Part shown: positions 1-14,052 of the stretch, piece after piece
Position numbering within the stretch: position 1 is the first letter of the stretch
Layout of the letters: each line of letters starts with the position of its first letter
Assembly (NCBI RefSeq): GCF_000803065.1
Contig: NZ_JSXI01000016.1
Span: forward strand, 124,001-188,000
From: Sphingomonas sp. ERG5
GTDB taxonomy: Bacteria > Pseudomonadota > Alphaproteobacteria > Sphingomonadales > Sphingomonadaceae
Direction: 5' to 3'
Length of the DNA stretch: 64,000 bases
The notes under the pieces: model-generated
What the model was told of the DNA's origin: nothing
What the model saw: the letters and a program-made list of their open reading frames with translations, nothing else
Database searches by the model: none
Position numbers and translations under genes: made by a program

Positions 1-171
1 CTGGTAATGGCTTCGCTGCATCGAGAATTGCTGCTCGAGAAAGGGGCGCCGGGCTTCGTCCGGAATCCCCATCGCTTCGACCTCGGCCCAGCGGATCGCG
101 ACATAGAGACGGCGGAGGAACGGTTCGTCCTCCGCCGTCTCCGGGCGCAACGTGAAGGCTGGCAGTGTCAA
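1..171 (-). CDS. GNAT-family N-acetyltransferase, N-terminal part (runs off the left edge)
   Basis: The minus strand stays open to the window edge and reads FTLRPETAEDEPFLRRLY near its start, followed by an amphipathic stretch ending in MQRSHYQ. This is the beta1-alpha1 start typical of GNAT acyl-CoA-dependent acetyltransferases; the acetyl-CoA loop lies outside the window. The only ATG at the junction with the upstream collar gene runs into a stop after two codons, so I take the in-frame TTG at 171-169, which has GGAA about ten bases upstream. It follows the three collar genes by a few bases and is probably the last gene of their operon. The acceptor substrate is unknown. Confidence 0.6.
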   Translation of the reverse strand, partial: MTLPAFTLRPETAEDEPFLRRLYVAIRWAEVEAMGIPDEARRPFLEQQFSMQRSHYQ

Positions 172-175
172 CGCA

Positions 176-727
176 TCAGTTCCGTGACGGGAAGGCCCCA
201 GAGATGCAGACGCAGACCAGCAGCGGCAGATAAGGCTGCCGGTTTTCATGCGGGCTGGAGCCCCCAGTGATGCCAACCGAGAGCGGGTGCATGATCACCG
301 GCGTGGTCAGCGGCGGTTTGAGATACGGAGCGGAAGGCGTGCCGGCCGGCGAGGAAAGGCGGCTGAGGCTGGTGGCGTTGGTCGGCACGTTGCTCAGGCC
401 CGTGATCGCACTGGGGAACACCTTGTTGTGAACGATGTGGCTATGTGCCGGCATTTCCATCTGGGTCAGCGAGATCCCCTCGCTGCCGATCGATTCCCCG
501 ACGACATAGTTGGACAGGCCTGGGCCTTGTCCCTGGCTGACCGGGCCGCGCCCGGAATAGTTGGGCAGCGCGAAGGTGGTCGTACCGTTGCCGCCATAGT
601 TGGTGCCGAGAAGCGAGAACAGTGCAGCATATTGCTGGATCGGCAATATGTTGCCGTTGCATTGCAACCAGCCGCGCGGGACGAAAGTGAAACCGAAAGC
701 GCGAATTTCGCCGAGAAAACCGTCCAT
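176..727 (-). CDS. Phage tail collar domain protein (microcystin-dependent-protein family), copy 3 of 3
   Basis: A 183-residue protein with the family layout: an N-terminal FLGEIRAFGFTFVPRGW segment, the collar core CNGNILPIQQYAALFSLLGTNYGG, a PAHSH motif near residue 93, a low-complexity middle, and the C-terminal ending FPSRN shared with its two neighbours. Known members are tail-fibre-like proteins of phage origin found in many free-living bacteria; the name comes from a microcystin-responsive cyanobacterial homologue. There is no signal peptide and no other phage gene nearby, so this is not evidently part of a prophage. It is the most diverged of the three copies (GLSNYVVGE replaces the usual middle) and lies 21 bp after the previous one. 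Its molecular function is unknown. Confidence 0.85.
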   Translation of the reverse strand: MDGFLGEIRAFGFTFVPRGWLQCNGNILPIQQYAALFSLLGTNYGGNGTTTFALPNYSGRGPVSQGQGPGLSNYVVGESIGSEGISLTQMEMPAHSHIVHNKVFPSAITGLSNVPTNATSLSRLSSPAGTPSAPYLKPPLTTPVIMHPLSVGITGGSSPHENRQPYLPLLVCVCISGAFPSRN

Positions 728-748
728 GATAAAGCTCCCTGTTCGCCG

Positions 749-1279
749 TCAGTTGCGGCTGGGAAAAATGCCGGCCAGCGCGATGATGTACGTCGCCGCC
801 AGAGTGGGCATGATATTGTCGTGCGGCAGGGTATTGCCTGCGGGCTGCACCGTATCGAGCGCCAGCGTGACGTCGTTGGGCGCGATCCCGGTCGGGTCGA
901 GGTAGAGCAGTTCGCCTTGTTCCGGCTGCGCCAGCAACGCGTTCGATGGCTGGGATATCGTGGCTGGCGTCGCTTGAGCGATCAGGCTGTGCGAATGCGA
1001 CGGAATCTGTGATTCGAGAAGCGTCACCGACTCGCTGCCGGACAGCTGGCCAATGACGTAGGAAGACAGGCCCAGGCCTGTCCCTTGGTTGATCGGGAAA
1101 CGGCCGCGCAGATCGGGTACGGCGAAGGTTGCCTGGCCGTCACCGCCATAAGTCGTGCCGATCAGCGTGTAGAGCGCGCTATAGTTTGAGATCGAGAGCA
1201 GCGCACCATTGCAGAGATGCCAGTTGGCGGGTGCAAAAGTGCCGCCGAACAAGCGGATTTCGCCAAGATAAGGAGTCAT
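749..1279 (-). CDS. Phage tail collar domain protein (microcystin-dependent-protein family), copy 2 of 3
   Basis: 176 residues starting MTPYLGEIRLFGGTFAPANW, then the collar core with CNGALLSISNYSALYTLIGT and TFAVPDLRGRFP, then a PSHSH motif and the ending GIFPSRN. Size and motif order match the neighbouring copies, so these are tandem duplicates that have diverged mainly in the central third. The start ATG has a good ribosome site (CCTCCAGG read on the complementary strand just upstream). Cytoplasmic by sequence (no signal peptide). The usual inference is a tail-fibre-derived structural or adhesive role, but nothing here shows what it binds. Confidence 0.85.
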   Translation of the reverse strand: MTPYLGEIRLFGGTFAPANWHLCNGALLSISNYSALYTLIGTTYGGDGQATFAVPDLRGRFPINQGTGLGLSSYVIGQLSGSESVTLLESQIPSHSHSLIAQATPATISQPSNALLAQPEQGELLYLDPTGIAPNDVTLALDTVQPAGNTLPHDNIMPTLAATYIIALAGIFPSRN

Positions 1280-1317
1280 TTTTTACATCCTCCAGGAGGG
1301 GGCTTTGTCCGACAGGG

Positions 1318-1860
1318 TCAGTTACGCGAAGGGTAGATGCCCGACGTCGAGATACAATAATTGACCGTCAGATAAGGCTGTATGTTACTATGCTGCTGGC
1401 CGCCGCCGACGTTCGAAATGCTGGTACCGGCGAGCGCCACCGAATTGGTGGTGGTCGACGCATAGATCATCTCGTTCGTGCCGCCCGTCACGGATGTCTG
1501 CGCATTGGCGAGATAGTTGTTCGCGGCTGCGTTGACATTCGCATTGGTGCTCGATGCTTTGAGCAAATGATTATGCGCCGGAAGCTGGCTGGTGACGAGC
1601 GTGACATTCTCGACTCCGCCTGGTGCTCCTTCGGGATAATAGGACCCGCCGGGAAGCTGACCCATGCCGAGGACTACGCGTCCGCGCAGATCAGGCAGAG
1701 CGAAGGTCTGAATACCGTTGCCGCCATAGGTTGTGCCGAGCAACGAGAACAATGCCTGGTTCTGTGCGATGCCTAAGATGGCGCCATTGCATAGAGCCCA
1801 GGTCTTCGGCGCCCAGTCCCATGGGAACATACGGATTTCCCCCAAGAAATAATCCGACAT
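1318..1860 (-). CDS. Phage tail collar domain protein (microcystin-dependent-protein family), copy 1 of 3
   Basis: First gene of the collar operon. The 180-residue product begins MSDYFLGEIRMFPWDWAPK, continues with CNGAILGIAQNQALFSLLG, TFALPDLRGRVVLGMG and a PAHNH motif, and ends GIYPSRN. The ATG is preceded by a near-ideal Shine-Dalgarno sequence (AAAGGAGG, about five bases of spacing), stronger than those of the downstream copies, as expected for the leading gene. A perfect 19-bp palindrome lies 34-52 bases upstream of the ATG and may control the whole operon. Family members are usually described as tail-collar or microcystin-dependent proteins; actual function unknown. Confidence 0.87.
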   Translation of the reverse strand: MSDYFLGEIRMFPWDWAPKTWALCNGAILGIAQNQALFSLLGTTYGGNGIQTFALPDLRGRVVLGMGQLPGGSYYPEGAPGGVENVTLVTSQLPAHNHLLKASSTNANVNAAANNYLANAQTSVTGGTNEMIYASTTTNSVALAGTSISNVGGGQQHSNIQPYLTVNYCISTSGIYPSRN

Positions 1861-2285
1861 ATACCCTCCTTTAGAAAGTAAGCTTCGCCATAATCTGAAT
1901 CAGTGATTCAGAATGGGCCGAGCGCTGCGCTACTAAATCAATAAAAAGAACAGGAACGTCGACGCCTTCGGCACCAATGCGGACATGGGCCCGATTGGAT
2001 CCGAAAAAGCCGGTGGTCGTTACCATATACGCGCATCGATTGACGGCCAGTCAAGCGTGATTTGCATTGCTGCACCGCGGCAAATGACATGTTTTTGATC
2101 CAATATGGATTTTGTTTATCGACGTAGAGGCGGAAGGATTTTGGAATCATCGCTCCAGTTCAGGTAGAAACTGTTCGCGATCGGGGCAGAAGGTCGATTT
2201 GTTGTTCCTTTACCATCAGTTTTAGCATTGCCGATTTGCTCATGCTTCGCGTAGGTACGCGTCCAACTGAGTTAAGGGGACGGCA
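1861..2285. other. Divergent intergenic region between the collar operon and the lasso-like locus
   Basis: About 425 bases with lower GC than the flanking genes. It must hold the promoter of the minus-strand collar operon (with the palindrome at 1894-1912) and that of the plus-strand precursor gene at 2286. The stretch around 2085-2120 and 2200-2250 is T-rich and could contain the plus-strand promoter, but I cannot assign -35/-10 boxes with confidence. A 70-codon minus-strand frame here has no family features and looks non-coding. Confidence 0.5.
1894..1912. promoter_or_regulatory. Perfect 19-bp palindrome, probable operator of the collar operon
   Basis: TCTGAATCA and TGATTCAGA flank a single central G, a perfect 9-1-9 inverted repeat. 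It lies 34 bases upstream of the first collar ATG on the minus strand, where it would overlap a promoter. Its length and symmetry suit a dimeric HTH repressor. It is too short-looped to be an RNA hairpin terminator. Confidence 0.55.
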
Positions 2286-2456
2286 ATGGAACAGTCTGAA
2301 CGATTGAGCGGCACCGGCTTGGACGTGGGCGAACCGGATATGCGTAAATCCTGGCAGACGCCGGCCGTGATCGCGCCCGCCGAGGTCAAGGAAGAAACCG
2401 GTTTTAACCCCGGCCCCTCCGGCGACAATTATCTCTCTTCCAACGCGGTAAGTTAG
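2286..2456 (+). CDS. Candidate lasso-peptide precursor (56 residues)
   Basis: A short frame with a strong ribosome site (AAGGGGA, five bases before the ATG), ending 31 bp before a lasso-cyclase-like gene. The leader contains W23-x-x-P26-x-V28 and T38. Counting a core that starts at F40, these fall at -17, -14, -12 and -2, which is the spacing of the Y/W-x-x-P-x-L recognition motif and the near-universal penultimate Thr of lasso leaders. The predicted core is FNPGPSGDNYLSSNAVS, with D47 at core position 8 available for a lactam with the F1 amine; the tail is 9 residues and ends in Ser. An alternative register starting at G39 would give a G1-D9 ring but puts Thr at -1. Function as an actual lasso peptide is inferred. 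Confidence 0.68.
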   Translation: MEQSERLSGTGLDVGEPDMRKSWQTPAVIAPAEVKEETGFNPGPSGDNYLSSNAVS

Positions 2457-2487
2457 CGCTGTGTCGATTGGAGCGTTGTTTTCGTGA

Positions 2488-4395
2488 ATGGGTGAATTTG
2501 CTGGTGTCGTCCGGCTCGACAGCGGCCCGATCGATCGGGCGACCTGCGACAGGCTGGGCCAGGGACTTGCCGGCCAGGCAAGGGCAACACTCTGGCGCGG
2601 CGGCGCTAGCGCAATTGCCGAGCGCGGGGCTCTGCGATGTTTATCGCCTCTCCCGCCCCAGATGGTGGAACAGTCTTCGGGTGCGGTGCTTGTCGCCGAT
2701 GTCAGGCTCGACGAACGAGATGATACGATGCGAGCGCTCGGGATGGCGCCCGCGTGCAGGCCTGACGATCTTGCGATACTCGCCGCTGCCTGTGAGCGGT
2801 GGGGCGACAATGCTGCGGCTCGGCTATTTGGCGACTTCGCCTTTGCGCTTTGGGATGAGCGATCAGGCCGGCTGACATTGGCGCGCGATGCGATCGGCAT
2901 GCGCATGCTGTACTATTTCGTCGACCGCGACATGGTCGTATTCGCAACCACCCTGCGCAAGATGCTCGCGTTGCCCCAGGTGCCGCGCGATCTCGACGAA
3001 CTCGCGATTGGCAATTTCATTACCCAGACACAGGGAGACGTCGAACGCACACTCTATCGTCAAATCCACCGGGTGCCGCCTGGCGGCACGGTGGTTATCG
3101 AACGGGGGGTGGTGCAGGTCGATCGCTATTGGACACCGCGATCGATCGCGCCTGTGCGTTATACCCACGATGAAGATTATGTCGACGCCGCGCGTGAACT
3201 GCTGGATCGCGCAGTTGCGAGCCGGCTTCCATCCGATGGCGGTGTGGCCGCGATGTTGTCCGGTGGATTCGATTCGACCGCGGTGGTCGGCACTGCGGCG
3301 CGATTGCTGGGCGATCGACGGATCAGCGCGTTTACGCGCATCCCCGGTGCGGCGCATCCTTATGATGCGCTCGACGAGGCGGGATTGGCGCGGCAACTGG
3401 CTGGCGGGCATGCCAATATCGACTGGATGACGATCGATGATGATATCCAGTTACCGCGCGATCGTGAGCCAGAGCTGGAATCGCCCATCCTCTGCATGCC
3501 GCGCACCGGTGCTTTCAATCCGACCTGGTTTCGGCCATTGCTGGACGCCGTGGAGCAGGCCGGTGCACGCGTCCTGCTTGATGGTGGGATGGGGAACATG
3601 ACCCTGTCATGGACTGGGAGGCCCCCCTATGCTGACCATGTGCGGCACGGCCGGCTGATCGCCGCCGCGCGCGTGGTGATGGATACGCGACGCGCCCAGC
3701 GACGCTCGTTCTCCGAAATCCTGCGCAAGGATGTAATACCCGTGCTTGAGCCCCGGTCGCTGCGGCTCTGGCGTTGGAGGCTGCATGACGGGGGTGAAGC
3801 CGCGATGCTTCGCCACTGCGCCGTAGCCGCTGACTTTCTCGAGAGCCTCGATTTCGAGCGGCACGCCCGCGCGCTCGACCAGGAGCTGCCGTTCGAGTTG
3901 ACAGGGGACATCCGCGCCTGGCGGATGAAGTTTATCCAGGCGCAGTACCCGCGCGATGTGATGGCAGGAAATCGCCACAGCTTTTCCTTCGATCAGCGCG
4001 ACCCGATGTCCGACCGGCGGCTTGCCGAATTCTCGCTCGGCGTGCCGAATGCGCAATTCTTTCATAAGGGCGAGACACGCTGGCTGGCGCGCCGTGTTCT
4101 CGCCGATCGTGTGCCTCGTGACGTGCTGATCGAACACCGCCAGGGGCGGCAATGTCCCGAATGGCATCATATCGCGAAACGGCGTCGCGATGCGATGGCA
4201 GTCTCGATCGAGCGAATCGAACGCTCGCCGCTTGCGTCTCGCGTCATCGACGTTCCCCGGTTGAAAAGCCTGCTCGACACATTTCCCGAGGATGCCGCGA
4301 CGGCAATGAAAAGCAGCGTCGAACATGGCCCCATGCTCCTGCGCGGCATTCAGATGGGCAGCTTTCTGCGCTGGCACGAAGGCGGCAACGACTGA
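2488..4395 (+). CDS. Asparagine-synthetase-like lasso peptide macrolactam synthetase (C protein)
   Basis: 635 residues with the two-domain layout of class B asparagine synthetases: an N-terminal Ntn-like domain (about 1-190; LFGDFAFALWDERSG and LTLARDAIGMRMLYYF are recognisable) and a C-terminal AMP-forming synthetase domain with the PP-loop SGGFDST beginning at residue 258. The protein starts MGEF, so the Cys2 nucleophile needed for glutamine hydrolysis is absent; that is the state expected in lasso cyclases, which adenylate an Asp/Glu side chain and close the ring with the N-terminal amine. The small precursor gene directly upstream supports this reading. The ribosome site is weak, suggesting coupling with the precursor. 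No B-type peptidase follows. A diverged amidotransferase of other function cannot be excluded. Confidence 0.75.
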   Translation: MGEFAGVVRLDSGPIDRATCDRLGQGLAGQARATLWRGGASAIAERGALRCLSPLPPQMVEQSSGAVLVADVRLDERDDTMRALGMAPACRPDDLAILAAACERWGDNAAARLFGDFAFALWDERSGRLTLARDAIGMRMLYYFVDRDMVVFATTLRKMLALPQVPRDLDELAIGNFITQTQGDVERTLYRQIHRVPPGGTVVIERGVVQVDRYWTPRSIAPVRYTHDEDYVDAARELLDRAVASRLPSDGGVAAMLSGGFDSTAVVGTAARLLGDRRISAFTRIPGAAHPYDALDEAGLARQLAGGHANIDWMTIDDDIQLPRDREPELESPILCMPRTGAFNPTWFRPLLDAVEQAGARVLLDGGMGNMTLSWTGRPPYADHVRHGRLIAAARVVMDTRRAQRRSFSEILRKDVIPVLEPRSLRLWRWRLHDGGEAAMLRHCAVAADFLESLDFERHARALDQELPFELTGDIRAWRMKFIQAQYPRDVMAGNRHSFSFDQRDPMSDRRLAEFSLGVPNAQFFHKGETRWLARRVLADRVPRDVLIEHRQGRQCPEWHHIAKRRRDAMAVSIERIERSPLASRVIDVPRLKSLLDTFPEDAATAMKSSVEHGPMLLRGIQMGSFLRWHEGGND

Positions 4396-4403
4396 CAGGT
4401 CGC

Positions 4404-6110
4404 TTATGCGGTGACTTGACCCAATTCGACCCGCACCACCCGGTCGCAAAACGCCATGCTCTCGGCACGGTGCGAGATCATCAGGATCGTCGGCCGTGGA
4501 TCGAGCGCGGCGAGTCGGGCGAGCAAGGCTGCCTCGCCCTCGGCATCGATCGCATTGGCGGCTTCGTCGAGGACCAGCAGGCGCGGGATACGCAACAGAG
4601 CGCGAGCCAAAGCGAGGCGTTGCCGCTCGCCACCCGACAGCATCGTCCCGCGTTCGCCGATCACCGTATCCAGTCCCTGTTCGAGCCGCGCGACCAAGCC
4701 CTGCGCGCCCGCCAGATCAAGCGCGCGGGCCATCGCCTCGTCGCTGATCGCGGGGTCGCCCCAGCTGAGATTGCGCCGCACGCTGTCATGGAACAGGAAA
4801 CCATCCTGCGGGACATAAGCGACACTGTCGCGCCAGCCGGCACGGCGTGCGGTGTCGAGCGTCGCTCCGCCGACCAGCATTTCCCCCGATTGCGGCACGA
4901 GCAGCCCGATCATCATGTCGATCAGCGTCGTCTTGCCCGCGCCCGACGGACCGCTGATACCGACAAAGCTGCCCGGCGCGATCGTCAGGCTCGCCTGCTT
5001 CACGCCGCCGCCGCCGGGATGGAGGAAGGCGACATTGCGCAATTCCATGCCGCCGGCGGGCGGAGCAATTGGTGGGGGTGAGGGGGCCTCGTCGCGGCCG
5101 AGGTCGATCTCCAGCTGGCGGATCGCCTCGAAGCTGGGCAGTCCGAAGAAGAAGTTCTGCGCCGCCGCCTGGATCTGCTGCGCGGGCCCGCTCATGCGCG
5201 CGAAGATCAACACCAGCGCGATCAGCACCGCCGGCTGGATGTGCAGAGCAACCCCGGCCAGCACCACGGCGGCACCCGCCAACGATGAGCCGATCCCGAA
5301 ACCGGCGCGACTGCGCGCCTGGCGTTGCTGAAAGGTCAGCTGGCGCTGGCGTAACTGGGTCTGGATCGTCTCGAATTCGGTGACGAAGCGACCCTGGCCG
5401 TTTTGCGCCGCCGCTGCTTTCAGTCCCCCGAGAAAACCACTCGCGCTGCCCATCAAAGCCTGGCTCTGGCGCACCACATCGCTGCCCAGGTCGCGCGAGC
5501 GGCCATGCGACATCAGGACCACGCCGCCGCCAATCACCAGCAGGACGATCGCGCCGGCCGCAAAACCCGGCGCGAGGGTGAAGGCGAGCGCGCCCTGGAC
5601 AAGCAGCAGGACGACCGCGACCACGCCCTGGATCATGAACTGCGCGCTGGAACCGATCCGCTGCATCTCGGTGCCGAGCAGATTGGTGATGCGGGCATGG
5701 CGCAGGGTCACGATCCGGCTCCATGGCGCGGTGGCGAGCGTGCGCAGCACCTGGTTGCGCTGTTGTTCGACAAAGCCGGTCTGCAACTTGCCGAGCGTCA
5801 CGTCGCGCACATAAAGCGTTCCGGCGCGGATCAGAGCGACGCACACGAATGCGGCCAGTAGTACGGCGAGTTGTGCGACCGGCGTGGTGGCGCCGAGCGC
5901 GGTCAACGTCTCGCCGATCCATATACGCCACGGATCGCCGCTCCCTGGCGAGACGACGACGCTGAGGATCGGGATCAGCAGCAGTACGCTGACCCCGTCA
6001 AGCAGCGCGCCCGACCCGACCAGTCCTGCCGCCAGCCAGACCCGCCAGCGCGCATAGCCGCCGAATGCCGCCGCGAAAGAAGCAGCCGATCTCCATGGCC
6101 CGGATCTCAC
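4404..6110 (-). CDS. ABC transporter, fused permease-ATPase (probable peptide exporter of the lasso-like locus)
   Basis: 568 residues from a GTG start that overlaps the stop of a 29-codon frame (GTGA). The N-terminal half holds the six-helix exporter domain (hydrophobic stretches such as LLDGVSVLLLIPILSVVV), the C-terminal part a complete nucleotide-binding domain: Walker A GPSGAGKTT, Q-loop VAYVPQDGFLF, signature MLSGGERQRLALARALL, Walker B LLVLDEAANAID and H-loop ISHR. It is a half-transporter that would act as a homodimer, like McjD-type exporters. It converges on the cyclase gene with only 8 bp between stops, so it is transcribed separately. The upstream extension of the open frame is noise. 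Substrate inferred from context only. Confidence 0.85.
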   Translation of the reverse strand: MRSGPWRSAASFAAAFGGYARWRVWLAAGLVGSGALLDGVSVLLLIPILSVVVSPGSGDPWRIWIGETLTALGATTPVAQLAVLLAAFVCVALIRAGTLYVRDVTLGKLQTGFVEQQRNQVLRTLATAPWSRIVTLRHARITNLLGTEMQRIGSSAQFMIQGVVAVVLLLVQGALAFTLAPGFAAGAIVLLVIGGGVVLMSHGRSRDLGSDVVRQSQALMGSASGFLGGLKAAAAQNGQGRFVTEFETIQTQLRQRQLTFQQRQARSRAGFGIGSSLAGAAVVLAGVALHIQPAVLIALVLIFARMSGPAQQIQAAAQNFFFGLPSFEAIRQLEIDLGRDEAPSPPPIAPPAGGMELRNVAFLHPGGGGVKQASLTIAPGSFVGISGPSGAGKTTLIDMMIGLLVPQSGEMLVGGATLDTARRAGWRDSVAYVPQDGFLFHDSVRRNLSWGDPAISDEAMARALDLAGAQGLVARLEQGLDTVIGERGTMLSGGERQRLALARALLRIPRLLVLDEAANAIDAEGEAALLARLAALDPRPTILMISHRAESMAFCDRVVRVELGQVTA

Positions 6111-6196
6111 GCCGCCAGCAACGCGCTCAATCGATGTTGGCGCGCCAACGCCCTCATCCGCAGCCTGTCGGCAATGTCCCCCGGCATATCGCTCAT
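6107..6196 (-). CDS. 29-codon frame overlapping the ABC transporter start; leader peptide or gene remnant
   Basis: ATG to TGA, 29 residues, ending in the GTGA that starts the ABC transporter gene. It begins MSDMPGDIADRLRMRALARQ and has a G-rich upstream stretch (GGGGCTGGGGCGGA) that could serve as ribosome site. The Arg/Leu-rich sequence with LARQHRLSALLAA resembles the opening of the uncharacterised nucleotidyltransferases that accompany some lasso clusters, but at this length the likeness is weak. It could be a translation-coupling leader or what is left of a deleted tailoring gene. Confidence 0.3.
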   Translation of the reverse strand: MSDMPGDIADRLRMRALARQHRLSALLAA

Positions 6197-6468
6197 TCCG
6201 CCCCAGCCCCTCTGCTATGCCGCTGGTATAGGGCCGTCGTTGCGCCGCGCCAATCGTTGCGCCCACATCCGGACATTGCTGCGCTGCAACAAATAATTCT
6301 GGTTTGTTTCCGCTACTTATCGTTTTGGTTCTATCCGCCACTTGCAAAGCATTCGCAGGGGCCGCACCATCGATGCCGGAATGAGACCGAGCAAGGGCGC
6401 GCAGACGCCGGCCGTCATCCCGGGGAGATCGGCGGACCTGAGCGATAGGGCAGGGGGAGCGAGCAGCG

Positions 6469-7674
6469 ATGATCGATAACCAGAACTGGTTGCACGGCAT
6501 GGCAAGCGGCCTTGCACTGTTGCTGGTTTCCGCATGTTCCGGCGCAAAGCCGCCCCCCGGCCCGCCAGTGGCGCAAGTGACCGTCGCGGTCCCGCTGCAG
6601 CGCGACGTGGTCGATTGGGACGAATATGTCGGCCGGTTCGAGGCAATCCAGGACGTTGAATTGCGTCCGCGTGTCTCGGGCACGATCGATCGCGTGCTGT
6701 TTACCGATGGCCAGGGTGTCGGCCAGGGCCAGCCGCTCTTCACCATCGATCCGCGTCCGTATCGCGCCGCGCTCGGCCAGGCGCAGGCCGCGTCGGCCAA
6801 GGCCGCGGCATCGCTTGCCAATGCGCGTTCGGAACTGGCGCGGGCGCAGAAGCTGCTCGACGTGCAAGCGATCTCGAAGGAAGAGTTCGAAACCAAACAG
6901 GCGGCGGTTCGAACCTCGGGCGCTGACCTTGCCGCGGCGCAGGCGTCGGTCAGCAATGCGCAACTCAATCTGGGGTTCACCACGGTGCGTTCGCCGATTT
7001 CGGGCCGCGTGTCCGACCGTCGCGTCTCGAGCGGCAATTTCGCGACGGAGGGGCAGACGATCCTGACGCGGGTGGTTTCGACCAACCCGATCTGGTTCTC
7101 GTTCGAAGGTGCGGAGAGCTTCTACCTCAAATATCTCCGCCAGGATCGCACCGGCGAGCGCGGGTCGTCGCGCAACACGCCCAATCCGGTCCATGTCCAG
7201 CTCGCCGACGAGAGCGGGTATCGCTGGCGCGGGCATATGGATTTCCTCGACAATGCGATCGATCAGAACTCCGGCACGATCCGCGCTCATGCGATCATCC
7301 CCAATCCCGACGGCTTCCTGACACCCGGCATGTTCGGTCGTGCGCGCCTGCTCGGATCGGGCACGTACAAGGCGATGCTGGTTCCCGACGAAGCGATCAC
7401 CACCGATCAGACGCGCAAGCTGGTCTATGTCGTCGGCAAGGACGGCAAGGCGACGCCGCGCCCGGTAGAAACAGGGCCGCAAGTCGAAGGGCTCCGCGTG
7501 ATCAAGAAGGGGCTGGCCGCCACCGACCAGGTGGTGGTCGAGGGGCTGACCACGCTGCAACCCGGAGCGTCGGTCAAGGCGCATCTGATCAAGATGCAGC
7601 CACGCGCGGCCAACACGTCGCCGACCTCGCAACCGGATACGGCGCCGCCGCCGTCCGAAGCCACGGCGCGCTGA
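6469..7674 (+). CDS. RND efflux periplasmic adaptor (membrane fusion) lipoprotein
   Basis: 401 residues. A lipoprotein signal ends LLLVSAC with Cys22 as the likely acylation site, followed by a Pro-rich linker. Then come the adaptor domains in order: barrel-sandwich half (VDWDEYVGRFEAIQDVELRPRVSG), a coiled-coil hairpin rich in Ala/Gln (about 100-160), the second lipoyl half (STVRSPISGRVSDR region), and beta-barrel and membrane-proximal parts with GMFGRARL. This is the MexE/AcrA family, bridging inner-membrane pump and outer-membrane channel. SD AGGGGGAG precedes the ATG. It is the first gene of a three-gene operon. The substrate range is not predictable. Confidence 0.93.
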   Translation: MIDNQNWLHGMASGLALLLVSACSGAKPPPGPPVAQVTVAVPLQRDVVDWDEYVGRFEAIQDVELRPRVSGTIDRVLFTDGQGVGQGQPLFTIDPRPYRAALGQAQAASAKAAASLANARSELARAQKLLDVQAISKEEFETKQAAVRTSGADLAAAQASVSNAQLNLGFTTVRSPISGRVSDRRVSSGNFATEGQTILTRVVSTNPIWFSFEGAESFYLKYLRQDRTGERGSSRNTPNPVHVQLADESGYRWRGHMDFLDNAIDQNSGTIRAHAIIPNPDGFLTPGMFGRARLLGSGTYKAMLVPDEAITTDQTRKLVYVVGKDGKATPRPVETGPQVEGLRVIKKGLAATDQVVVEGLTTLQPGASVKAHLIKMQPRAANTSPTSQPDTAPPPSEATAR

Positions 7675-7678
7675 TCCT

Positions 7679-10600
7679 GTGAAATTTCCCCATTTCTTCA
7701 TCGAACGGCCGATCTTCGCGGCGGTCATGTCGATCCTGATCGTGGTGTTCGGGATCGTCGCCTATCCCGGCCTGCCGGTTGCGCAATATCCCGAGATCGC
7801 GCCGCCGACCGTGGTGGTCAGTGCCAGTTATCCCGGCGCGACGGCCGAGACCCTGGCCGAAACGGTGGCGGCGCCGCTCGAGGAATCGATCAACGGCGTG
7901 GAGGACATGATCTATATGTCCTCCTCCTCGACCGGCGATGGTGCGATCGCGATCACCGTGACGTTCAAGCAGGGCGTCAATGTCGATCAGGCGCAGGTGC
8001 TGGTGCAGAACCGCGTCTCGACCGCCGAGCCGCGCCTGCCTGAGGAAGTGCGCCAGATCGGCGTGACGGTGCGCAAGAATTCGCCCGACATCCTGATGGT
8101 CATCGCACTGACCTCGCCCGATGGATCGCTGTCGCAGCAATATATCTCCAACTATGCCACCACCCAGCTGATCGACCGGCTGTCGCGTATCCAGGGTATC
8201 GGTGGTGTGCGCTCGTTCGGCGGGCGCGACTATAATATGCGCGTCTGGATCGACCCCGATCGCGCCTCGTCGCGCAACCTGACCGTCGACGAGATCATCG
8301 CCTCGATCCGCGCGCAGAACGCGCAGGTCGCGGTCGGCTCGGTCGGCCAGCCGCCGTTCAATCAGGGTGGCACCGCGTTCCAGCTCGGCATCCAGACCGA
8401 AGGACGGCTGACCACCACCGACCAGTTCGGCGAAATCATCGTCAAGCGCGACGATCAGGGCCGGTTGACGCGGCTGCGCGATGTCGCGCGGCTCGAACTC
8501 GGTGCGCAGGATTACGGCATCAACGCGCAGTTGAGCGGCAAGCCGACCACTGCATTGGGCATTACCCAATTGCCGGGATCGAACGCGTTGACCACGGCGG
8601 ACGCGGTCAAGAAGGAAATCGCCGAAGCATCCAAATCCTTCCCGGCGGGGATGGCCTATTCGATCCCGTACAACCCGACCGAGTATATCGAAGCGTCGAT
8701 CGAGGCGGTCTATCACACGCTGATCGAAGCGATCATCCTCGTCGCGCTGGTCGTGCTGCTGTTCCTGCAAAGCTGGCGCGCGACGATCATCCCGCTGATC
8801 GCGGTGCCGGTCGCGCTGGTCGGGTCACTGGCGATGCTCGCGGTGTTCGGCTTCTCGCTCAACAATCTCTCGCTGTTCGGCATGGTGCTGGCGGTCGGCA
8901 TCGTCGTCGATGACGCGATCGTGGTGGTCGAGAATATCGAACGGCTGATGGAGGAGAAGGGGCTCTCGCCGCGCGAAGCCGCGCACGAGACGATGGACGA
9001 AGTGTCGGGCGCGCTGATCGCCATCTCGCTGGTGCTCTGCGGCGTGTTCATCCCGACCAGCTTCATCCCTGGCATCTCGGGGCAATTCTATCAGCAGTTC
9101 GCGCTGACCATCGTCTCGGCGGCGGTGATTTCCGCCTTTGTATCGCTGACGCTGTCACCGGCGCTCGCCGCGATGATCCTGAAGCCCAAGCATGAGAGCG
9201 AGCCGCGGCAAGGCTGGCTCGGCTATCCGGCGCGCTTCTCGCGTGGCTTCAATCGCGGATTCAACAAGCTGGGCGAGAAGTTCGGCAAGTTCACCGCCCG
9301 CGCGGTGCGCTCGCTGGTGCTGGTCGGCATCGTCTATGCCTGCCTGATCGGGCTGGCGGGATGGCGCTTCACCGCGACGCCGACCGGCTTCATCCCGGCG
9401 CAGGATCAGGGCTATCTGATCGCGGTGATCCAATTGCCGCCGGGATCGTCGCTGCAGCGCACGACCGAGATCATGAACAAGGCCGGCGCGATCGCCCGCG
9501 CCAATCCGGCGACCGAAGCGACGGTCGAGTTTGCCGGTCTGGACGGCGCGACCTTCTCGACCGCGCCCAATGCCGGCGCGATGTTCGTCCCGCTCAAGCC
9601 GCATGCCGACCGCAAGAACGCGAACCTGATCGCGGGTGAGCTGCGCAAGGCGTTCGGTCCGCTCACCGGCGGCAACATCCTGGTCATCCCGCCGCCGCCG
9701 GTGCGCGGGATCGGCACCGGCGGCGGCTGGAAGATGCTGATCGAGGATCGCAACAACCAGGGCTACAAGGCGCTGGAAGGTGCGGCGTTTGCAATGATGA
9801 TGAAGGCCAACCAGGCCCAGGGCATCACCAGCGCCTTCACGACCTTCAACACGCGCACGCCGCGGCTCTATGCCGATATCGACCGGGAACGCGCCGAACA
9901 GCTTGGCGTGCCAGTGGACAGCGTGTTCCGTACGCTCGGCACCTATCTCGGCTCGACCTATATCAACGACTTCAACTTCATCGGTCGCACCTTCCGCGTG
10001 ACAGCGCAGGCCGACGCGCCATATCGTGATCAGATCTCCGATGTCGGGCATCTCAAGGCTCGCTCGGCCGCGGGCAATATGGTGCCGCTCGACGCGGTGC
10101 TGACGTTGAAGAACGACAGCGGGCCGTACCGCGTGGTGCGCTACAACCTTTATCCGTCGGCGGAATTGCAGGGCGATACCGTGCCCGGCTTCTCCTCCGG
10201 TCAGTCGCTCACCACCATGGCGACGCTGGCATCGCAGACCTTGCCCAAGGGCATGTCGTTCGAATGGACCGAGCTGGCCTATGAACAGCAACAGGCAGGC
10301 AATACCGGCGCGTTGGTGTTCGGGCTCGCCGTGCTGTTCGTGTTCCTGCTGCTCGCGGCGAATTACGAAAGCCTGGTGCTGCCGCTCGCGGTGATCCTGA
10401 TCGTGCCGATGTGCCTGCTCGCGGCGATCGTCGGGGTGAACATTTTCGGCGGCGACAATAATATCCTGACTCAGATCGGGCTGGTCGTGCTGATCGGGCT
10501 TGCGGCGAAGAACGCGATCCTGATCGTCGAATTCGCGCGCCAGAACGAGGAAGCGGGGATGGAGATGCACAAGGCGGCCGAACATGCCGCGGAGCAACGC

Positions 10601-10867
10601 CTGCGTCCGATCGTGATGACTTCGATCGCCTTCATCCTCGGCGTGCTGCCGCTGGTGATCGGCACCGGGCCGGGCGCCGAGATGCGTCAGGCGCTGGGTG
10701 TCGCGGTGTTCTTCGGCATGATCGGCGTGACCAGCTTCGGCCTGCTCTTCACGCCAAGCTTCTATGTCATCAGCCGCAAGTTCGGCGACTGGGTGAGCAG
10801 CAAGGTGCGCCGCAAACCGAAGACCGAAGTGGAGCCTGAACCGCTGCCGGAAGGAGGCGCGGCATGA
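7679..10867 (+). CDS. RND multidrug efflux permease, HAE1 family
   Basis: 1062 residues, the usual length for an AcrB/MexF-type proton-driven pump. The N-terminus FPHFFIERPIFAAVMSILIV starts TM1; the paired Asp of the proton relay lie in the TM4 motif VGIVVDDAIVVVENIERLM; a second helix bundle near residues 870-1020 contains GLAAKNAILIVEFARQ and VGTGPGAEMRQALG-like sequence. Two large periplasmic loops lie between TM1-2 and TM7-8. Start is GTG, five bases after the adaptor stop, so the two are co-translated. It works as a trimer in the inner membrane with the adaptor upstream and the channel downstream. Confidence 0.96.
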   Translation: MKFPHFFIERPIFAAVMSILIVVFGIVAYPGLPVAQYPEIAPPTVVVSASYPGATAETLAETVAAPLEESINGVEDMIYMSSSSTGDGAIAITVTFKQGVNVDQAQVLVQNRVSTAEPRLPEEVRQIGVTVRKNSPDILMVIALTSPDGSLSQQYISNYATTQLIDRLSRIQGIGGVRSFGGRDYNMRVWIDPDRASSRNLTVDEIIASIRAQNAQVAVGSVGQPPFNQGGTAFQLGIQTEGRLTTTDQFGEIIVKRDDQGRLTRLRDVARLELGAQDYGINAQLSGKPTTALGITQLPGSNALTTADAVKKEIAEASKSFPAGMAYSIPYNPTEYIEASIEAVYHTLIEAIILVALVVLLFLQSWRATIIPLIAVPVALVGSLAMLAVFGFSLNNLSLFGMVLAVGIVVDDAIVVVENIERLMEEKGLSPREAAHETMDEVSGALIAISLVLCGVFIPTSFIPGISGQFYQQFALTIVSAAVISAFVSLTLSPALAAMILKPKHESEPRQGWLGYPARFSRGFNRGFNKLGEKFGKFTARAVRSLVLVGIVYACLIGLAGWRFTATPTGFIPAQDQGYLIAVIQLPPGSSLQRTTEIMNKAGAIARANPATEATVEFAGLDGATFSTAPNAGAMFVPLKPHADRKNANLIAGELRKAFGPLTGGNILVIPPPPVRGIGTGGGWKMLIEDRNNQGYKALEGAAFAMMMKANQAQGITSAFTTFNTRTPRLYADIDRERAEQLGVPVDSVFRTLGTYLGSTYINDFNFIGRTFRVTAQADAPYRDQISDVGHLKARSAAGNMVPLDAVLTLKNDSGPYRVVRYNLYPSAELQGDTVPGFSSGQSLTTMATLASQTLPKGMSFEWTELAYEQQQAGNTGALVFGLAVLFVFLLLAANYESLVLPLAVILIVPMCLLAAIVGVNIFGGDNNILTQIGLVVLIGLAAKNAILIVEFARQNEEAGMEMHKAAEHAAEQRLRPIVMTSIAFILGVLPLVIGTGPGAEMRQALGVAVFFGMIGVTSFGLLFTPSFYVISRKFGDWVSSKVRRKPKTEVEPEPLPEGGAA

Positions 10868-12288
10868 AGAAGCTCGCCCTGATTCCGGCACTGGCGCTTT
10901 CCGCCTGTACGGTGGGCCCCGACTACCAGCGTCCTGCTACGTCAGCCAGGGCGGCGGGCGGCTTCAGCGAAACCGCGCGGACGGGTGCGGTCGCGGCGAC
11001 CACGCTGCCCGATGGCTGGTGGAAGCTCTATGACGACCCGGCCCTTGATCGGCTGATTACCGATGCGCTGGCCCATAACACCGACGTTCGCGCCGCGGCC
11101 GCCAATCTGGCGCGCGCCCGCGCCGCCTTGTCGGAGCAGCAGGGCGCACGGCTGCCATCGACCGATGTCAGCGCATCCGCCAAGCGCAACCGCACAGCGG
11201 CGGGGCAAAGTCCGACCGGGCGCGCGTTCGAGACCGATTATTATTCGGTCGGCTTCGACGCGTCGTACGAGATCGATCTGTTCGGTGGCGTGACCCGCGC
11301 GATCGAAGCGGCGCGCGGCGACCGTGACGCGGCGGTGGCGCAACTCGATGCGGCGCGCGTGTCGATCGCGGCGGAAACCGCGCGCGCCTATGCCACTGCA
11401 TGCGGCAATGCCGCGCAACGCGCCGTGGCGCAGGAGACGGTCCAGCTCCAGCAACAGACGCTCGATCTCACCAGGCGCCTGTTCGACGCCGGGCGCGGTA
11501 CGCGCCGCGATGTCGAGCGCGCCGATGTGCTGCTTGCCCAGACCCAGGCGCAGATTCCGGGATTCGAGGCGGAACGCCGTGCATCGCTTTATGCGCTGGC
11601 GACGCTGACCGGCCGTCCACCGGCCGAGATCGATGCCGATGCCGATCGCTGCACCACGCCACCGCGCGTCCGGGTGATCCTGCCGGTGGGCGACGGCAAT
11701 GCGCTGCTCGCGCGCCGCCCCGATGTCCGTGCGGCCGAACGGACACTCGCCGCCGATACGGCGCGGGTCGGGGTTGCGACCGCCGATCTCTATCCCTCGA
11801 TCCGGCTGCTCGGCAGCGTGGGACTGGGCGGTACCAAACCGGGCAATGTGTTCAAGGGGTCGGGCTTGTCCTACTCGGTCGGGCCGCTCATCTCGTGGAA
11901 CTTCCCCAACCAGACGATCGCGCGCGCCCGCCTGCGTCAGGCGAGGGCGACATCGGACGGATCGCTTGCGCGCTTCGACGGCACGGTGCTGACCGCGTTG
12001 AAGGAAGTCGAGCAGGCGCTCGCACGCTATGCCGGTGCGCTCGACACCAATGCTGCGCGGATCCGTGCCGAACAGGCCAGCGGCGAGGCGGCGAAGCTGT
12101 CCAAGCTGCGCTTCGATTATGGCGCCGACAGTTTCCTGTTGCTGATCGACGCCGAGCGCGACCGGGCCAGTGCCCGCGCGGCTCGTGCCCAGTCGGACTC
12201 AGCGGTGGCGGATGCACAGATCAGCCTGTTCAAGGCGCTGGGCGGCGGCTGGGAAAACGCGCCGGAGGTCTCGCGGCGCGAGCCCTGA
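10864..12288 (+). CDS. Outer-membrane efflux lipoprotein, NodT/OprM family
   Basis: 474 residues, starting inside the pump gene (ATGA overlap). A lipobox ALSAC near residue 15 is followed by TVGPDYQRP, a hallmark of NodT-type factors. The two OEP repeats are rich in Ala/Gln/Arg heptads, with conserved ARRPDVRAAERTL at the repeat boundary and the C-terminal DYGADSFLLLIDAER. It forms the trimeric outer-membrane channel of the tripartite system encoded by the three genes. No obvious terminator follows, but a repeat cluster begins 46 bp downstream. Confidence 0.95.
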   Translation: MKKLALIPALALSACTVGPDYQRPATSARAAGGFSETARTGAVAATTLPDGWWKLYDDPALDRLITDALAHNTDVRAAAANLARARAALSEQQGARLPSTDVSASAKRNRTAAGQSPTGRAFETDYYSVGFDASYEIDLFGGVTRAIEAARGDRDAAVAQLDAARVSIAAETARAYATACGNAAQRAVAQETVQLQQQTLDLTRRLFDAGRGTRRDVERADVLLAQTQAQIPGFEAERRASLYALATLTGRPPAEIDADADRCTTPPRVRVILPVGDGNALLARRPDVRAAERTLAADTARVGVATADLYPSIRLLGSVGLGGTKPGNVFKGSGLSYSVGPLISWNFPNQTIARARLRQARATSDGSLARFDGTVLTALKEVEQALARYAGALDTNAARIRAEQASGEAAKLSKLRFDYGADSFLLLIDAERDRASARAARAQSDSAVADAQISLFKALGGGWENAPEVSRREP

Positions 12289-12334
12289 TTTCCGGCCTCG
12301 ACCGAATTGGCCGAACGCCGCCGTCAGTATGTCG

Positions 12335-12468
12335 CCCCTGTTATCCCCTGTTTTCGGCAGTGTATTTTTCCGCCCCTGTTATGTTGGATTCAGCCGGCGG
12401 ATTACGCGTTTGTTTTCAGCAGCATGACTGACCCAGCCCCTGTTATGAAAACAGGGGTGGAACAGGGG
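12335..12468. repeat. Cluster of CCCCTGTT repeats, direct and inverted
   Basis: Direct copies of CCCCTGTTAT or a close variant start at 12335, 12345 (CCCCTGTTTT), 12373 and 12437; inverted copies AACAGGGG lie at 12450-12457 and 12461-12468. The 12373 and 12437 copies share CCCCTGTTATG. Spacing is irregular (10, 28, 64 bases), unlike CRISPR. The last direct copy and the first inverted copy form the hairpin listed separately. Confidence 0.7.
12437..12457. terminator. Hairpin from inverted CCCCTGTT copies, possible bidirectional 3' end
   Basis: CCCCTGTT and AACAGGGG form an 8-bp perfect stem around a five-base ATGAA loop. It lies between convergent genes. There is no T-run after it on the plus strand, so intrinsic termination is uncertain; it may instead protect transcript ends. 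Confidence 0.4.
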
Positions 12469-12607
12469 CGATATTGCCTGGTGCTTCGCGGCCATGTGAA
12501 AGAGCGGGACAAGCACGCCCGACCGACGTCTCGTCCGACCATCACCATGCGACATTCCGCAATCCGGTTGAATTGCCGTTGGGCGGATCGTTCGACGCGA
12601 TGACGCG

Positions 12608-13564
12608 TCAGCGTTCCGCCGTTTTTGGTGCGGACGCCACCGGGCTTGTGAGCGGCTCGATGGCGATCGCGTCGGGATCGGCGATCAGATCGCGGATCGC
12701 GGCGGTATCACCCTGATCGACCACTCCGAAAACCGGCATCGATCCCGCCTTCATATCGGTCAGCACCACGCGATCGCGCGCATAGAGATTGATCTTAGCG
12801 ATGACGTCGCGCAGCGGTTCACCGCGAAAGACCAGCTGGCCGCGTGTCCAGGCAGTGGCGCTGTCCGCGTCGAGATCGGTCGCCTGGCGGATGAAACCAA
12901 CGCTGCCGCCGTCGCGCGCGGTGATCCCGAACGAGAGCCGCTCGCCCTTGCGCGCGAGCTTCTCGATTGGTTCGGTCGCGCGCGGACCCTGCGCCGTGTC
13001 GCGCAAGGCGATGCGGATCACGCCTTCGACCACGGTGACCTGAGCCTCGCGTGCCGCGACCGCGACGTCGAAGGCCGTACCGACCGCTTTCACTTCGCCA
13101 TGCGGTGTCTCGACGATGAAGGGCCGCGCGGTGTTGTGGGCGACCTTGAACAAGGCTTCGCCACTCGCCAGCCGCAGCCGGCGTTCGCCCGGTGTGTAGT
13201 TGATGGCGACACGGCTGTCGGCGGCGAGCGTGACGGTCGAGCCGTCGGCCAGCCGGATCAACCGGCGTTCGGCATGGCCGGTCGCATAATGCTGCGCGAA
13301 GTCGCGCTCTGCCGCCGGGTAGACGAACCAGGTGACGCCGCCGATGATCGCGAGCATTACCGCCGCCAGGGCTGCGACCCGTGCCGGCCATGCCTGCCAT
13401 ATCGAGGGCGCCGGCGGTGCATCGACCGGGCGTTCGAAGTCGCCCAGCCAATCCCAGAATGCTGCGGCTTCCTGTCGGTCGGCGGGATGCAGATCCTCGC
13501 CACGACCGGACAGGAGCGCATCGAAGACCGCTTCCGCGCGGTGATTCAGATCGCGGTCGCTCAC
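12608..13564 (-). CDS. FecR-family anti-sigma/sigma-regulator
   Basis: 318 residues: a cytoplasmic N-terminal DUF4880-like segment (ADRQEAAAFWDWLGDFERP), one transmembrane helix about residues 63-83 (VAALAAVMLAIIGGVTWFVYP), then the periplasmic FecR domain with RLIRLADGSTVTLAADSRV and GEALFKVAHNTARPFIVET. The family relays the loaded state of a TonB receptor's STN domain to an ECF sigma factor. It overlaps the sigma gene by 4 bp (ATGA) and is encoded divergently from the STN receptor gene at 14264, its likely partner. Confidence 0.93.
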   Translation of the reverse strand: MSDRDLNHRAEAVFDALLSGRGEDLHPADRQEAAAFWDWLGDFERPVDAPPAPSIWQAWPARVAALAAVMLAIIGGVTWFVYPAAERDFAQHYATGHAERRLIRLADGSTVTLAADSRVAINYTPGERRLRLASGEALFKVAHNTARPFIVETPHGEVKAVGTAFDVAVAAREAQVTVVEGVIRIALRDTAQGPRATEPIEKLARKGERLSFGITARDGGSVGFIRQATDLDADSATAWTRGQLVFRGEPLRDVIAKINLYARDRVVLTDMKAGSMPVFGVVDQGDTAAIRDLIADPDAIAIEPLTSPVASAPKTAER

Positions 13565-14052
13565 AGGCCGCGCTCCATCAGGTGCCCGAGCCGGGCATAG
13601 AGATGCGCGACGGCATGAGTCAGGTGCTTCTGCACCATCCGCGAACTGATCCCGAACTCGCGTGCGATCTCACTGGTGCTGCGCTCGTCGAACCGGCGCA
13701 TCACGAATACCGCGCGGCACCGTGGTCCGAGTTCGTCGAGCGCCGCTTCCAGCGCCGCTTGCAGATCGGCGACACGCCGCCCATCTTCCTGGGCCGGACG
13801 AACCGGCACGTCATGCTCGTCGAGCAGCGGCGCGGTCGAGATGGTACGGCGATGCCGGTCGGCGATCAGGTTGGCGGCAATGCGGAAAAGATAGGCTTGC
13901 GGCTCATCGAGCGTCTGGGTCTGCGCCCGAGCGATCAGGCGCGCACAGGCTTCCTGAACCAGATCCTCGACCTCGGTGGGATTGGCGACGCGGCGGGCCA
14001 CGAACGCGCGAAGCGCCGCGCGATAGGCGTCGAAGCCCTCACCCGTCGTCAT
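13561..14052 (-). CDS. FecI-type ECF sigma factor
   Basis: 163 residues from the ATG at 14052; an in-frame TTG ten codons upstream is a poorer alternative. Region 2 is visible as PTEVEDLVQEACARLIARAQ with the following QAYLFRIAANLIADRHRR, and region 4 as LGPRCRAVFVMRRFDERSTSEIA plus the recognition helix ISSRMVQKHLTHAV. This is the FecI subgroup, which switches on TonB receptor genes in response to substrate via FecR. The FecI-FecR pair is divergent from the receptor, with about 210 bp between the start codons. Confidence 0.93.
   Translation of the reverse strand: MTTGEGFDAYRAALRAFVARRVANPTEVEDLVQEACARLIARAQTQTLDEPQAYLFRIAANLIADRHRRTISTAPLLDEHDVPVRPAQEDGRRVADLQAALEAALDELGPRCRAVFVMRRFDERSTSEIAREFGISSRMVQKHLTHAVAHLYARLGHLMERGL

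Follow-up and report, generated by a model that had tools for sequence, protein, structure and literature searches.

The locus of Sphingomonas sp. ERG5 described here raises the question of whether a very short open reading frame, an asparagine-synthetase-like gene and an ABC exporter gene that adjoin one another can amount to a lasso peptide pathway, and from where its remaining enzymes would then come. The window, as we call the whole stretch of 64,000 nucleotides that was analysed, lies on the contig that we label C8 of this genome (G000).

The precursor and cyclase-like genes

The candidate precursor gene A (positions 2286-2456, plus strand) encodes 56 aa, with a putative leader of residues 1-39 and a predicted core of residues 40-56 (F1...D8...S17). 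A ribosome-binding-like AAGGGG, read from the sequence at 2274-2279 (plus strand), stands six bases upstream of its ATG, a good ribosome site that bears out the first-pass annotation's 56-codon frame with a strong one. Its reading of the leader also holds position by position, with W23, P26, V28 and T38 lying at -17, -14, -12 and -2 relative to the core start F40. Gene A thereby shows the lasso leader pattern [YW]xxPx[LVI] with Thr at -2 (motif positions per PMC10368454), together with an Asp at core position 8, where Asp or Glu is looked for at positions 7-9, and an end in NAVS that provides the C-terminal Ser of the paeninodin/syanodin type. Because the frame has a positive coding score, homologues at the equivalent place in the relatives G047 and G033, and a pN of 0.188 against a pS of 0.42 (few sites) between the window and G047 copies, it is more than a chance frame. 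The further suggestion that automatic gene calling would overlook the precursor is doubtful, since its 54-aa counterpart in Azospirillum sp. TSH100 did enter the annotation there, labelled as a hypothetical protein. Upstream of A, the divergent intergenic stretch towards the phage-tail-collar genes (1861-2285) contains patches kept in the corresponding loci of G047 and G033 (L045 and L046), for example TTTTTGATCCAA; a promoter scan returned one site, as in shuffled sequences, with none upstream of A and none above shuffles in 1861-2285.

Gene C (2488-4395, plus strand) begins after 31 bases and encodes a lasso-cyclase-like protein of 635 aa that keeps SGGFDS and matches the Pfam models Asn_synthase (69.6 bits, above cut-off) and GATase_7 (58 bits). 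That an asparagine-synthetase-like protein without Cys2 follows the short frame had been proposed before, and both halves of the claim stand: the protein starts MGEF and so has no Cys2 glutaminase nucleophile, and a Cys at position 2, as expected of asparagine synthetase B, occurs in 0 of 10 aligned members. The best NCBIfam match was the lasso cyclase model NF033535, at 223 bits against a curated cut-off of 525. The predicted structure (mean pLDDT 86.8) had as fold neighbours TsnB9, a hydroxyamidotransferase (Z 35.9, rmsd 3.5, 527 aligned), beta-lactam synthetase (Z 35.6) and asparagine synthetase; a lasso cyclase was named neither in the fold table nor among the 7 solved sequences matched, an absence that is no evidence. 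A quick maximum-likelihood tree of 74 rows placed C in a 46-row group with the paeninodin-family cyclase of Priestia (SH-aLRT 94, the Priestia row being flagged for a long branch of 1.72 and odd composition), apart from the included asparagine synthetases and outside the benenodin-type lasso cyclases, which formed a separate group with a support of 100. A place among ordinary amidotransferases, which would have spoken against the lasso reading, was thus not what the tree gave. Pfam, the modelled fold and the tree all point to an ATP-dependent asparagine-synthetase-like cyclase.

Conservation of the locus and its exporter

A search with C across 120 relatives (own genome included, E<=1e-30) revealed cyclase matches in 16 genomes, again counting our own. 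The copies in G047 and G033 showed full-length identities of 82% and 72%, followed by the next best at 44-46%, and the A-C pair was kept in 2 of the 119 other relatives, such that the 56-aa peptide stands beside C in the own genome, G047 and G033. The order of three collar genes, A, C and the ABC exporter gene was the same in G047 and G033. Homologues of the cyclase thus keep the short frame next to them; a lack of such conservation had been named in advance as grounds for doubt. Between the window and G047, pN was below pS for C (0.101 and 0.511) as it was for A, which points to purifying selection on both genes, for A from few sites.

The exporter gene adjoins the cyclase gene as the first-pass annotation had it, and runs convergent with C from a GTG start (4404-6110, minus strand; 568 aa, D-like). 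Its product carries the Pfam membrane and ATPase domains, with no peptidase domain in the Pfam run, and is 43-45% identical to the exporters of two complete kinase-bearing lasso-type clusters (L052 and L055). The earlier right border at 6196 needs correcting, and an exporter start at 6196 was rejected, since the ATG there belongs to another frame, of 29 codons (6107-6196, minus strand), with a stop codon that overlaps the exporter's GTG. At the equivalent place, L045 and L046 have frames that begin M[SN]DI.

Where B1, B2 and the kinase are encoded

No match to B1 (PqqD, PF05402), B2 (PF13471) or the kinase was found on C8, and the window locus accordingly has neither the kinase nor the B1 and B2 genes that usually, if not by strict definition, belong within a lasso cluster. 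Elsewhere in the own genome, PF13471 matched on C20 and C78 only, the HprK-like kinase on C20, C40 and C84 only, and PqqD on C20, C40, C49, C60, C79 and C84. The C78 match belongs to a separate benenodin-like A-B-C cluster (L062), and C20 (L061) carries kinase, sulfotransferase, PqqD and B2 genes with a TonB receptor and no cyclase. These four enzymes were 85-97% identical to their counterparts in L135 of G033, where there is no cyclase, and in L059 of G047, where there is one, and all three genomes that bear the window locus also carry a C20-type set. A search for W..P precursors in the small frames of L061, L059 and L135 found none. On C40 (L155), a kinase, a sulfotransferase and PqqD lie near another TonB receptor gene, with no cyclase in the stretch read.

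A set of this kind also occurs joined to the rest of a pathway: in G043, locus L111 unites a C20-like set (64-72% identical) with a precursor gene, a cyclase gene and three collar genes. The tree placed the L111 cyclase in the clade of our own locus L063 on contig C1, which has A, C and collar genes but, to a distance of 8 kb, neither B1 nor B2 nor a kinase. Because the joined set of L111 comes with a cyclase from the clade of the B-less L063, the comparison suggests that, for the C1 peptide, one cluster may have become two unlinked ones. For the window locus, supply in trans is what we infer and not what we observe, since this evidence of fission concerns the C1 locus and the nearest tree relatives of the window C (L047, L048, L077 and L078) still have kinase and sulfotransferase genes beside the cyclase.

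Across the 120 relatives, 15 of the 16 cyclase-positive genomes had the kinase, versus 1 of the 104 others, and B2 was present in 15 of 16 versus 30 of 104. In the one cyclase-positive genome with neither (G071), the tree groups the cyclase match with asparagine synthetases, and the kinase-positive genome without a cyclase match (G050) carries, close to the kinase gene, a weaker cyclase-like one (L130). A PF13471 match was found somewhere in 31 of 33 cyclase-positive genomes, the two without being G071 and G462. For the 44 family loci whose flanks each measure 6 kb or more, a scan to 8 kb left 28 without B2, 16 without both B1 and B2 and 18 without the kinase, where flanks below 8 kb could hide a gene and the window was scanned over bases 1-14000 only. 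Solitary B2-like genes, with no other modelled family gene in the 14-18 kb fetched, were seen in G053, G040, G125, G265 and G366 (L136-L140), whose own family cyclase loci lack B2. The open-licence papers that we searched named no split lasso clusters as such.

A wider family and a rule for its precursors

Two further genome sets searched with the cyclase at 1e-60 gave matches in 9 of 396 and 11 of 385 genomes; a contig search with the cyclase for related loci contributed one relative (L011), and the remaining loci came from whole-genome searches. Protein clusters from the first loci supplied the HMMs with which we annotated the neighbourhoods, and the representatives, named by Pfam/NCBIfam, comprised an HprK-related kinase (below cut-off), a sulfotransferase, PqqD, B2 (NF033537, above cut-off), a nucleotidyltransferase, GNAT and DUF6916. 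Likely counterparts of the kinase motif His-Lys-Asp-Asp were recognized in 45, 48, 46 and 47, respectively, of 48 kinase rows, the Priestia row included.

Around 57 cyclase loci we listed small frames within 1 kb that had a good start, scored acceptably for coding and did not overlap known genes, ignoring the last residue in their selection. Frames with W..P ended in Ser in 41 of 43 cases versus 2 of 56 for frames without W..P, and a W..P frame lay within 1 kb of the cyclase in 38 of the 57 loci and in none of the other 19. The W..P frames without a Ser end, in L086 and L096, look like chance frames and were counted as misses; fitting frames of L048, L050, L055 and L103 lie more than 1 kb from the cyclase and so outside the 41, the L060 frame was left out for too weak a best start, and the Azospirillum precursor, which ends Ser-Gly, is outside the W..P count. 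An Asp or Glu followed 22-24 residues past the Trp in 39 of the 41 Ser-ending frames, and a Thr stood exactly nine residues before this acceptor in 22 of the 41 (mean 11.5 and maximum 21 in 2000 shuffles), the spacing expected from Thr(-2) and an acceptor at core position 8. The predicted first core residues of those 22 were Gly (7), Asn (4), Phe, Tyr and Ala (2 each) and Leu, Ser, Gln, Thr and Ile (1 each). The passage on metanodin in PMC12670498 reports Asn at position 1 as not observed before, and Phe is absent from the N-terminal residues that this passage names as experimentally observed.

Loci without B1, B2 or kinase within 8 kb of the cyclase were also seen in G490, G618 and G715 (L095 and L097-L101), with a W..P precursor in L095, L097 and L099 and none within 1 kb in L098, L100 and L101. 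In G462, which is rated 100% complete and is one of the genomes without PF13471, a cyclase occurs with a candidate precursor of 35 residues (L093).

Likeness to known lasso systems

The closest known counterpart is the paeninodin-family cluster on plasmid pB2.3 of Priestia aryabhattai (L151), which was matched by the same cyclase, kinase, PqqD, B2 and ABC models and whose precursor has WxxPxL and a C-terminal Ser like those of the window family. All genes are clustered in Priestia, whereas the window has A, C and the exporter alone with a collar triplet, and its cyclase is far diverged. Syanodin-type kinase-bearing clusters of Proteobacteria (SyanK of Sphingobium yanoikuyae), as described in PMC9266682 and PMC8498205, share the host group, the C-terminal Ser and the HprK-like kinase with the family, whereas no kinase stands beside the window cyclase; the likeness to syanodin is one of description. 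Benenodin-type loci of Sphingomonadaceae and Caulobacter (L062, L149, L150 and L152) share A, a B2-type protease and an asparagine-synthetase-like cyclase, but their cyclases form the separate group, their precursors lack WxxP and the C-terminal Ser, and an isopeptidase adjoins in L149 and L150. A maturation enzyme encoded away from its precursor is also described, in PMC8960859, for lanthipeptides with unclustered proteases, although these belong to another RiPP class and here the recognition and tailoring genes seem dispersed too. Judging from the Priestia model matches, the precursor likeness, the cyclase tree and the kinase motif, the family is the alphaproteobacterial side of a known kind, the paeninodin/syanodin lasso type with its C-terminal Ser, HprK-like kinase, B1 and B2.

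A proposed pathway completed in trans and its alternatives

A lasso reading of the window locus is therefore likely as far as sequence comparison goes: the conserved frame and the cyclase phylogeny uphold the earlier description of a lasso-peptide-like locus, but with neither B1 nor B2 it is incomplete and no self-sufficient lasso cluster. It is probably the A-C-exporter part of a variant of the paeninodin/syanodin kind, with completion in trans. On balance, we lean towards the A-C pair (2286-4395) being part of such a pathway, in which B1 (PqqD-like), made elsewhere, would bind the leader at W(-17)xxP(-14)xV(-12); an HprK-like kinase and perhaps a sulfotransferase, also made elsewhere, would modify the precursor, with the C-terminal Ser as the likely site; and a B2 protease from elsewhere would cut after T(-2)-G(-1). 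The cyclase would then adenylate the side chain of D8 and couple it with the F1 amino group to close a ring of 8 residues that leaves a tail of 9, and the neighbouring ABC exporter would secrete the product. The likeliest source of the missing enzymes is the unlinked set on C20. Speaking for this reading are the retention of the A-C pair in three genomes, the W..P, Ser-end and acceptor pattern, NF033535 as the best NCBIfam model for C, the grouping with the Priestia cyclase, the exporter's likeness to those of L052 and L055, the co-occurrence of kinase and B2 with the cyclase, the joined set of L111 and the C20-type set in all three genomes with the window locus. Points against it are that the evidence of fission concerns the C1 locus, that no precursor with the pattern was found in the C20-type loci, that C stays below the NF033535 cut-off, that 19 of the 57 loci lack a W..P frame, that the predicted Phe1 is outside the residues named in the metanodin passage of PMC12670498 and that G462 has no PF13471 match.

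The locus could instead work without a dedicated B1 or B2, in that the cyclase accepts a precursor with its leader still attached, or that the leader is first taken off by a housekeeping protease. Pseudomycoidin is said, going by the title of a 2019 study by Zyubko, to be made without both leader and leader peptidase, and the lack of B1 and B2 on C8 and of PF13471 in G462 would suit such a route. We nonetheless regard it as unlikely, since B2 accompanies the cyclase in nearly all matching genomes, the exporter shows no Pfam peptidase domain that might stand in, and the conserved leader motif and Thr(-2) would be needless without B1 and B2.

It is also conceivable, if improbable, that C makes another amide bond and not a threaded lasso, for example in a simple macrolactam or a C-terminal modification, as the modelled likeness to TsnB9 and beta-lactam synthetase, the NF033535 score and the many unusual predicted first core residues might indicate. 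The spacing of Thr and acceptor, the co-occurrence with a B2 that scores above the NF033537 cut-off and the annotation of the homologous Priestia cluster as a paeninodin-family lasso all argue the other way. That the locus is a remnant, which lost its B1, B2 and kinase genes and makes no product any longer, is very unlikely, because even though the nearest tree relatives keep kinase and sulfotransferase genes, A and C are open and under apparent purifying selection between species and the arrangement is the same in three genomes.

Phage-tail-collar genes beside the cyclases

Absent from the first-pass annotation, a triplet of phage-tail-collar genes (PF07484, by Pfam) lies on the opposite strand, divergent from A, at 176-727, 749-1279 and 1318-1860 (all minus strand), next to the start of a GNAT acetyltransferase gene that is cut by the window edge (1-171, minus strand; named by running Pfam on its L045 counterpart). 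Of the 44 complete-flank cyclase loci, 17 have at least three collar genes no farther than 8 kb away, most with GNAT. Among 100 relatives picked without regard to collars, 23 had collar genes, which formed 21 clusters of at least two (single collar genes and two three-domain single-gene frames, in G046 C7 and G051 C55, were excluded); 14 of these clusters were in cyclase-bearing genomes and 10 beside a cyclase, versus about 0.14 expected by chance. The remaining 11 had no cyclase in the fetched stretch, some stretches stopping at contig ends, meaning that the collar module, in many cases together with GNAT, also stands alone.

Collar triplets, usually with GNAT and DUF6916, were seen beside alphaproteobacterial lasso-type cyclases in the window (176-1860, minus strand) and in L011, L045, L046, L063, L077, L087, L088, L091, L094, L102-L106, L108, L111 and L148, with six copies in L102. 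On a plasmid of Azospirillum sp. TSH100, three 'tail fiber protein' genes and a GNAT gene lie between the precursor and a gene annotated as 'lasso peptide biosynthesis B2 protein'. Among open-licence papers, we found none connecting lasso genes with those for collars or tail fibres and none on DUF6916; one table of PMC10040529 names tail fibre, lasso B2, PqqD, sulfotransferase and asparagine-synthase-related clusters, with the tail fibre unlinked to the rest in that table. A tentative joint proposal, which has some chance of being right but probably does not hold as a whole, is that the unlinked kinase, sulfotransferase, B1 and B2 set serves several A-C pairs (on C8, C1, C71 and C84) and that the collar triplet with GNAT works together with the lasso-type peptide, in a physical or regulatory partnership, as its carrier, receptor-binding fibre or target, and is no chance neighbour.

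Implications for the family

Searches for A, B and C genes side by side would skip loci like that of the window, given how many complete-flank cyclase loci have no B2, or neither B1 nor B2, nearby. The combination of W..P, a Ser end and a suitably placed acceptor offers a simple way to find the precursors of such loci, and the association of collar and lasso genes is a testable clue to the purpose of both these peptides and the collar proteins.
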